Origin: Natrinema sp. HArc-T2
Lineage (GTDB): Archaea > Halobacteriota > Halobacteria > Halobacteriales > Natrialbaceae
Length of the DNA: 64,000 nucleotides
Reading direction: 5' to 3'
Assembly (NCBI RefSeq): GCF_041821085.1
Contig: NZ_JBGUAZ010000002.1
Span: 124,001-188,000, forward strand
The notes beneath the pieces were generated by a model. The model searched no databases and had not been told where the DNA came from. It saw nothing but the letters and a program-made list of their open reading frames with translations. Shown here one piece after another: positions 33,024-34,678 of this stretch. The first letter of the stretch is position 1. Each line of letters opens with the position of its first letter. The position numbers and the translations under genes are program-made.

Positions 33024-33070
33024 GCCCTTCGTAGCTTTACCTTGTGACCAGAAGCACTTAAAGAACGGCA
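33024..33070 (+). repeat. TATA-containing direct repeat R1
   Basis: This copy carries GCCCTTCGTAGCTT, then ACCTTGTGACCAGA and CACTTAAAGAACGG. The TTA of ACTTAAAG (33058-33060) is the stop codon of the minus-strand nucleotidyltransferase, whose last residues Ser-Ala-Val-Leu are therefore partly encoded in the repeat. It matches R2-R4. Confidence 0.8.
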
Positions 33071-33993
33071 GACTGTTCGGTCGCGGCGATCACCTCATTG
33101 ACGAACCCATCCAGCCGCGCGGGATCGGGACCGGCCCGCGCGTGCACGTCGGGATCGATCATCGTCGGCGGCTGTGCGAACTCCCGACCGACGGCGTCGC
33201 CGATCGTGGCGTCGCCCTCGCCGGCTCGTTTTCGCTCGAGTAACTCACGAGCGCGGTCGATCCGCTCGGGGTCGAAAACAGCGGGAGCCTGCTCACGGAG
33301 GAACGTCTCGAACGCGAGCGCTGGCAGATCGTGCGTGTCGCGCTCGCCGGTCGCTTTGAGGTAGTAGGCGGCCATCGCCGCGCGGCAGATCGTCAGGTTT
33401 CGCTTGACTGTGGGTTTCGTCTGTGTCTCCTGAAATCGCTCGTCGTCAGCCGACACCGTCATCGTGCCGTCGTCGGTTTCGACGACGAACGTCTGGCCGT
33501 CTGCCTCGCGAATCGGAAAGAGTTCGTCGTCACTGCGGACCAGATGGTGCGAGATGTACTTGCGATAGTTGCTCGTCGCAATGCCGCGCCACGTATGATA
33601 GAGGTCGATCGGGTTGTACGTCCGTTTGACGTAGGCAGCGAGGTCGTCAGGCTCGTAGACGGCCCGATAGCGGAGCGGACTGCGAACCAGGTCGATTGCA
33701 CCCTCGTTCGAGTCGGCGAGCAGTCGCGCGAACGTCCGCACGTCCCAGCCCTGGTACTCGAACGCGCCGCAGTCTTCGACGATGGTCTCGGGCGGGCGCT
33801 CGAGGTGCGCGTACCGGCGTAAATCGGTCGATACGAAGACGAAACCTACGTCGTAATCGCTGTCGGGACTCGCCCCACCCCAGGCGTGGCTCCCACGGGC
33901 GACCGCCAGCGGGACCGCGACGTCGTGTTCGCGTTCGATCGCCGTCAAGTGGTCGTCGACGGTCTCGTGGACGTGTGGTGGAACAGTAGCCAT
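33058..33993 (-). CDS. RlaP-like nucleotidyltransferase (DNA polymerase beta superfamily)
   Basis: This 311-residue COG3541-type nucleotidyltransferase has the pol-beta head Gly-Ser-His-Ala-Trp-Gly-Gly-Ala near residue 34 with the catalytic Asp46-x-Asp48 in Asp-Ser-Asp-Tyr-Asp-Val-Gly-Phe. The C-terminal helical half includes Lys-Tyr-Ile-Ser-His-His-Leu and Thr-Val-Lys-Arg-Asn-Leu. RlaP relatives have been proposed to act in RNA repair by adding a nucleotide to damaged ends; the substrate here is unknown and no RNA ligase is adjacent. The ATG at 33993 is chosen because the family begins close to the head. The gene lies exactly between direct repeats R1 and R2. Confidence 0.82.
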   Translation of the reverse strand: MATVPPHVHETVDDHLTAIEREHDVAVPLAVARGSHAWGGASPDSDYDVGFVFVSTDLRRYAHLERPPETIVEDCGAFEYQGWDVRTFARLLADSNEGAIDLVRSPLRYRAVYEPDDLAAYVKRTYNPIDLYHTWRGIATSNYRKYISHHLVRSDDELFPIREADGQTFVVETDDGTMTVSADDERFQETQTKPTVKRNLTICRAAMAAYYLKATGERDTHDLPALAFETFLREQAPAVFDPERIDRARELLERKRAGEGDATIGDAVGREFAQPPTMIDPDVHARAGPDPARLDGFVNEVIAATEQSAVL

Positions 33994-34040
33994 GGCTGTG
34001 GCTCGAAGAACGGAAGACGAGAGAAAACCGGGTGCCAAAT

Positions 34041-34083
34041 GCCCTTCGTAGCTTCACCTTGTGACCAGAGGCACTTAAAGAGG
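34041..34083 (+). repeat. TATA-containing direct repeat R2
   Basis: It shares GCCCTTCGTAGCTT, ACCTTGTGACCAGA and GCACTTAAAGA with R1, with only two substitutions over about 41 bp. It lies 48 bp upstream of the nucleotidyltransferase start, on the other side of that gene from R1. Confidence 0.8.
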
Positions 34084-34162
34084 AGTTGGAGCGCGACGGC
34101 CACGCCATGACGCGTATTGTAACGTCGTAACTACCAGTTGGGGTCCCAGAGAACGACCGTCA

Positions 34163-34218
34163 CCCCGTCATAGCTCTACCTTGTGACCAGAGATACTTAA
34201 AGAATGAACGGCTCGAGC
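34163..34218 (+). repeat. TATA-containing direct repeat R3
   Basis: CCCGTCATAGCTC, ACCTTGTGACCAGAGA and ACTTAAAGAATG, followed by GCTCGAGCC. Its flanks match R4 better than R1 and R2, so the four copies form two pairs. Confidence 0.8.
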
Positions 34219-34242
34219 CGCAGTCGATCTCGACGCTGCGAC

Positions 34243-34482
34243 CTAGAGATATAGTTCAGCCAAATATTGTATGGAATAATGGCTGCCCTCCGCGCCGCTC
34301 TCTTCGAGTGGGGCCGAGAGAGAATTGCCAGCGTCGTCATCGCTAGAGTGGCTGTCGCCCTTAGAGTGGCTGTCTCCCTTGCTCACCGCGTCACCGACGA
34401 GGTTCTGGCTGGGGTGGGAGCAACGGTGCGATTCGCCATCGCTCTCATCACTTCGCGGGCGATCATCGACCGGCTCATCCAT
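34243..34482 (-). CDS. Doubtful small acidic protein
   Basis: A 79-residue frame (Met-Asp-Glu-Pro-Val-Asp-Asp-Arg) is acidic and Ser/His-rich and contains the internal duplication Lys-Gly-Asp-Ser-His-Ser. It lies between R3 and R4, with no clear promoter and no recognisable domain. It may be a decayed or chance frame; it is listed because the 758-bp region 33994-34751 otherwise holds only the repeats. Confidence 0.25.
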   Translation of the reverse strand: MDEPVDDRPRSDESDGESHRCSHPSQNLVGDAVSKGDSHSKGDSHSSDDDAGNSLSAPLEESGAEGSHYSIQYLAELYL

Positions 34483-34515
34483 CGCTCGAGTGACTCCTCT
34501 ATAGTAACAACTGAA

Positions 34516-34556
34516 ACGGGCTGCTGTCACTGGTACCGGCACACACCCGTATGGCG
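34516..34556. repeat. Degenerate fragment of the convergent-gap palindrome
   Basis: ACGGGCTGCTGTCAC and ACACCCGTAT resemble the ends of the family at 46341-46426, with the central stem missing. The preceding CTATAGTAACAACTG matches the left tip of palindrome family 2. The piece looks like a recombination remnant. Confidence 0.35.
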
Positions 34557-34620
34557 AGTCACAAGTGCACCGGCAATGACAGACGCACCGCTGAAAAGGC
34601 AACATCCGGAGAACGACGAC

Positions 34621-34678
34621 CTCCCGTCATAGCTCAACCTTGTGACCAGAGACACTTAAAGAACGGACAGCTCGAGCC
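34621..34678 (+). repeat. TATA-containing direct repeat R4, upstream of mptA
   Basis: CTCCCGTCATAGCTC, ACCTTGTGACCAGAGA and CACTTAAAGAACGG, then CAGCTCGAGCC. Its ACTTAAAG lies about 100 bp before the mptA ATG and is oriented as a TATA box for it, so R4 is the copy most likely to be a working promoter. Confidence 0.75.

Follow-up and report, generated by a model that had tools for sequence, protein, structure and literature searches.

The four direct repeats R1 to R4 in the window (the whole 64,000-nt stretch of DNA analyzed) are copies of an element of approximately 41 bp that is epsilon-specific and polar, lies in cis, and is found chiefly beside rpoeps, a gene for a homolog of RNA polymerase subunit epsilon. 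Since the element occurs only in genomes with an epsilon gene and usually adjoins that gene, the repeats are probably the control sites of rpoeps itself and not promoters of the adjoining gene. Based on sequence comparison, we judge it reasonably probable that R1 to R4 represent a cis-regulatory element of the haloarchaeal rpoeps system, through which rpoeps would be autoregulated and would govern a small regulon including mptA. The locus comprises the following features, the repeats being scored with model R2, the broader of two element models.

32111..32878, minus strand: rpoeps, RNA polymerase subunit epsilon homolog of 255 aa (homology to annotated epsilon proteins)
32897..32914, minus strand: conserved core promoter of rpoeps, GCGAGCCTTTTTCACGC on the minus strand (cross-species alignment of the 90 nt preceding rpoeps)
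33025..33065, plus strand: R1, type A (CCCTTCGTAGCT...; model R2, E=7e-12)
33058..34038, minus strand: rlaP, predicted RNA-repair nucleotidyltransferase, inside the array (Pfam PF10127, E=2.6e-29)
34042..34082, plus strand: R2, type A (model R2, E=6.4e-12)
34164..34204, plus strand: R3, type B (CCCGTCATAGCT...; model R2, E=1.3e-9)
34623..34663, plus strand: R4, type B, 5' of the mptA core promoter (model R2, E=2.6e-10)
34714-34728, plus strand: near-invariant BRE/TATA of mptA, CCGAAAG-CTTGAATC (alignment of mptA upstream regions)
34743..35678, plus strand: mptA, GTP cyclohydrolase (NCBIfam MptA, E=1e-123), with an ATG at 34752

The initial annotation of this DNA described four same-orientation direct repeats around an RlaP-like gene and mptA, with R1/R2 and R3/R4 as the closer pairs, and all of this was borne out. 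The family matches agree with both gene names, and the copies lie on the plus strand at the positions first reported, starting at 33025, 34042, 34164, and 34623 and remaining in register over 56 nt. The spaced core ACCTTGTGACCAGANNNACTTAAAGA has four exact matches in the window against a mean of 0 in 100 shuffles, CCCTTCGTAGCTT is common to R1 and R2, and R3 and R4 are 91% identical over 56 nt. The possibility that the motif recurs only as drifted chance matches was ruled out by searches of other haloarchaeal genomes, in which further copies are present. In its own genome, exact ACCTTGTGACCAGA occurs only at the positions of R1 to R4. A sequence-only covariance model added two distant copies in the same genome (C2:193583 and C2:287034), both on the same contig and strand. 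The copy closest to rpoeps, R1, is 146 nt from its start codon and overlaps the stop codon of rlaP, while copy R2 sits just 5' of rlaP and is directed away from it. Between R3 and R4 there is also an 18-bp tandem duplication (TAGAGTGGCTGTCKCCCT, window positions 34344-34379), where the open reading frames have no family match.

Alignment of 186 homologous instances from haloarchaea, mostly Natrialbaceae, gave a sharp-edged consensus of approximately 41 bp, CCC[GT]TC[GA]TA[GT]CTYYACCTTGTGACCAGARNYACTTAAAGaa, with little conservation in the flanks on either side. The TATA-like ACTTAAA is near-invariant in these instances, the conserved block contains no palindrome, and the upstream half falls into three subtypes (T..G..G, G..A..G, and G..G..T at three positions). 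A structured RNA was considered as the identity of the element and set aside. Neither tRNA nor Rfam searches matched the repeats, and across the 186 instances the mutual information was strongest between adjacent bases or inside the upstream half and weak elsewhere.

Four proteins encoded on Halorussus, Halocatena, and Halococcus plasmids and carrying the annotation DNA-directed RNA polymerase subunit epsilon share 56-61% identity with the product of 32111-32878 across more than 80% of the length of that product. We compared the distribution of this gene and the element in 292 genomes of the haloarchaeal class, using the same draw for both. A strong rpoeps match was present in 122 of the 292, a subset of haloarchaea. 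Model R1 detected the element in 105 genomes, every one of them with rpoeps, and in none of the 170 genomes lacking the gene (2 x 2 table 105, 0; 17, 170; Fisher p=8e-62, uncorrected for phylogeny). In 11 of the 17 rpoeps genomes where this model found nothing, diverged element copies lie beside rpoeps. Model R2 takes in such copies and found the element in 120 genomes, all among the 122 with rpoeps, leaving only G200 and G202 with the gene and no detected element; being trained on rpoeps-positive genomes, it would miss a very different variant in genomes without rpoeps. Seven families (f1, f4, f5, f6, f7, f12, and f14, as read from the genome lists) each include some genomes that have the gene together with the element and others that lack the two, and gene and element also track each other inside genera g14 and g21. 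Two neighboring genes served as controls and did not track the element: RlaP is present in 73 of the 292 genomes, being absent from 62 with the element and present in 15 without it, and the DUF7436/TrmB gene is near universal (279/292). In genus g59 (f4), no element was found beside rpoeps by repeat finding, by pattern, or by the model with its filters off; weak genome-wide matches to model R2 occur in four of its five genomes.

The close relatives with and without rpoeps and the element in g14 and g21 amount to natural knock-outs for a comparison of transcription. Separately, four genomes of f6 (G269, G275, G229, and G255) have at least two rpoeps-like matches, with the element close to several of the paralogs.

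The geometry beside rpoeps is consistent with a regulatory site. Among the collected loci, some of which overlap, 191 of 193 elements 5' of rpoeps are directed away from it, with the nearest element edge 64-291 nt from the start codon; the two exceptions, pattern matches pointing toward rpoeps at 24 nt from the start codon, look like chance. A TATA-like core promoter separate from the element lies about 30 nt before the rpoeps ATG, and the element is therefore 5' of that promoter, where an upstream regulatory site would be expected. Arrays of operators upstream of the gene for an autoregulated transcription factor are a general concept, and the arrangement here resembles them in having several copies 5' of the core promoter of the factor gene together with a few dispersed copies. 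It differs in that the 41-bp element is non-palindromic with fixed polarity, and in that its partner is an RNA polymerase-associated subunit and not a classical dimeric regulator.

In Natrialbaceae the array consists of 2-6 copies, in many cases spaced by about 110-150 bp, that occupy the gap from the divergent rpoeps to mptA and always point to mptA. In other families it adjoins the rpoeps homolog, and mptA and RlaP are not adjacent. The initial annotation had offered three explanations, namely duplicated mptA promoters with R4 as the promoter of mptA, junctions of a repeatedly inserted element, and binding sites of one regulator. R4 does lie 5' of mptA in the correct direction, and the element precedes mptA even in Natrialbaceae in which rpoeps is elsewhere (L225, L226, L229-L232, and L244), but the core promoter of mptA is distinct from R4: a near-invariant BRE/TATA belonging to mptA lies about 60 bp past R4 and about 25 nt before the ATG, and the element stands 89 to 194 nt before that ATG across species. 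Given also that the element is found at rpoeps and not at mptA outside Natrialbaceae, duplicated mptA promoters are a most improbable explanation. The probability that RlaP was carried in by a mobile element or an integron-like cassette whose repeats are seen here is negligible: although two similar type-A copies flank RlaP, arrays exist without RlaP (L071 and L145) and RlaP exists without the element, neither tRNA nor Rfam searches matched the locus, and the core pattern gave no match to a viral contig. RlaP is dispensable to the array, in which it is present in most Natrialbaceae species, and is a passenger there. Of the three ideas, that of binding sites for a single regulator has the best support, and co-occurrence singles out rpoeps as the partner and its product as the candidate regulator.

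Plasmids provided a sample outside the training set, as six plasmid-borne epsilon-like genes identified by tblastn were kept out of the element models. The element lies within about 0.2 kb of four of them, on both sides of the gene at L203 and L206 and also at L204 and L207, and was absent beside L205 and L208. The gene at L207 encodes an epsilon homolog of 33% identity from Halobacterium hubeiense that is annotated as hypothetical. These plasmid genes bear on the proposal that some other transcription factor uses the element as its operator, with a regulon that includes rpoeps and that in Natrialbaceae extends to mptA and the AEC/GNAT genes. Such a factor would account equally for sites 5' of rpoeps and of mptA and would not need epsilon to bind DNA, but it would have to match the phyletic pattern of epsilon in seven families, including the contrasts within genera, and the plasmid epsilon genes have the element without a common regulator as neighbor. 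We therefore regard this proposal as unlikely. On the H. hubeiense plasmid, pSTJ003 (L207, 1367-3864), the element is just 5' of the distant epsilon homolog, and a gene for a TATA-box-binding protein is about 1 kb from that homolog.

The main rival to regulation of rpoeps is that the element is itself an epsilon-dependent promoter, in which ACTTAAA would serve as the TATA box and the 30 bp upstream would be read by epsilon, giving non-coding or antisense RNAs directed away from rpoeps; R1 would then yield an RNA antisense to rlaP. The fixed polarity of the element, the abrupt end of its conserved block just after the TATA-like ACTTAAAG, the direction of the arrays into gene-poor stretches, and the use of native DNA templates by RNA polymerase through epsilon (PMC8305020) are all consistent with a promoter. 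Like an archaeal BRE/TATA promoter, the element ends in ACTTAAAG with its conserved part upstream. Unlike one, it is conserved for approximately 35 bp upstream, has no gene start at a fixed distance, and has AGARNYA directly 5' of ACTTAAA in place of the haloarchaeal CGAAA-type BRE, which mptA possesses as CCGAAAG. Moreover, the would-be transcript is not conserved and many copies run into convergent genes, and on balance we find an epsilon-dependent promoter rather doubtful.

Little is understood of epsilon itself. It was described in 1983 as enabling the RNA polymerase of Halobacterium to transcribe native DNA, and according to a 2021 review H. salinarum and some, but not all, other haloarchaea possess its gene and its relevance is enigmatic (PMC8305020). 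The gene beside the array fits this description in that its relatives are annotated as rpoeps (OE_1279R in Halobacterium salinarum) and it is likewise restricted to a subset; it differs in that the literature found is biochemical only and does not mention a linked DNA element. A literature search found no paper describing the motif or the regulation of epsilon. An element whose presence, absence, and location follow those of rpoeps is a first concrete handle on epsilon, supplying a candidate binding site and candidate targets in rpoeps itself, mptA, and the AEC transporter/GNAT pair.

Searches of Pfam, NCBIfam, and PDB sequences gave no sequence-profile or PDB match for epsilon, TFIIB profiles included. 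An AlphaFold model built with 27 close homologs had a mean pLDDT of 53, the helical part (residues 94-222) being mostly at 60-80. With this low-confidence model the top Foldseek match was TFIIB (E=0.2), and the best VIA-align matches were Brf2/TFIIB cyclin repeats (Z-scores of 7.1 down to 5), among which helical proteins of no relation also ranked; TFIIB scores of 5-7 overlap the noise level of helical models. Residues 193-221 read as a C-terminal helix-turn-helix (HTH) in the sequence and the model. As a lead and not a result, epsilon may consist of a single TFIIB-like cyclin repeat and a C-terminal HTH. It would resemble the TFB/TFIIB core, whose cyclin repeats read the BRE, in these best structural matches and in its C-terminal HTH, and would differ from it in having only one repeat's worth of the fold, predicted with low confidence and without a sequence-profile match. 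In the HTH helix (...TTSLNRLRRVL...), R213 is replaced by T, A, N, H, D, E, or K mostly in lineages with a diverged upstream half of the element, a co-change that is confounded by phylogeny and has exceptions at L196 and in genus g53.

Returning to the favored reading of the element as a cis-regulatory site of the rpoeps system, we propose that epsilon would bind it through the C-terminal HTH, possibly with TBP on the ACTTAAA end. The array 5' of the core promoter would set the expression of rpoeps in an autoregulation of which the sign is likewise presumptive, and the other copies would extend this control to mptA, to the AEC transporter/GNAT pair, and, in certain genera, to hisG or PRPP synthetase. 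It is possible, if tentative, that epsilon acts as a TFIIB-like, promoter-selective initiation factor with a dedicated signal of approximately 41 bp, a sigma-like addition to TBP/TFB, for which R1 to R4 would be the autoregulated master site. Reading of the element by epsilon would mean that a part of the haloarchaea supplements TBP and TFB with a further promoter-selectivity factor.

Dispersed copies have no strict gene geometry, with 38 gene starts against 16 gene ends behind them and 33 against 24 ahead, and their orientation differs among hisG, PRPP synthetase, and mptA. No epsilon-like paralog was found beside them. A shared regulon defined by gene function was rejected, as the copies lie near MgtE, PRPP synthetase, AEC/GNAT, HisG, and other genes with no common theme. 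The element might alternatively be a chromosome-organizing or replication-polar site, such as for segregation or as a fork barrier, given that, among 15 congeners with chromosome-level assemblies, almost every copy is on one strand in the interval bounded by two divergent rRNA operons. Other genera, however, have copies in both orientations, copies also adjoin plasmid epsilon genes, and presence tracks rpoeps and not replication genes, making such a site very improbable.

Several of the dispersed locations recur. In Natrinema and genus g34 the element is found between divergent genes for an AEC-family transporter and a GNAT acetyltransferase (L017, L018, L029, L110, L209, L210, L222, and others). 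It also occurs, reversed, 5' of PRPP synthetase (L009, L023, L030, L103, and L114) and, in other genera, 5' of hisG (L096, L219, and L224), both genes being PRPP-linked. In the chromosome-level congeners (G002-G042) the copies between the two divergently transcribed rRNA operons are nearly all on one strand, with an exception at G022:C4:364803, and the same zone holds two conserved orc1/cdc6 genes.
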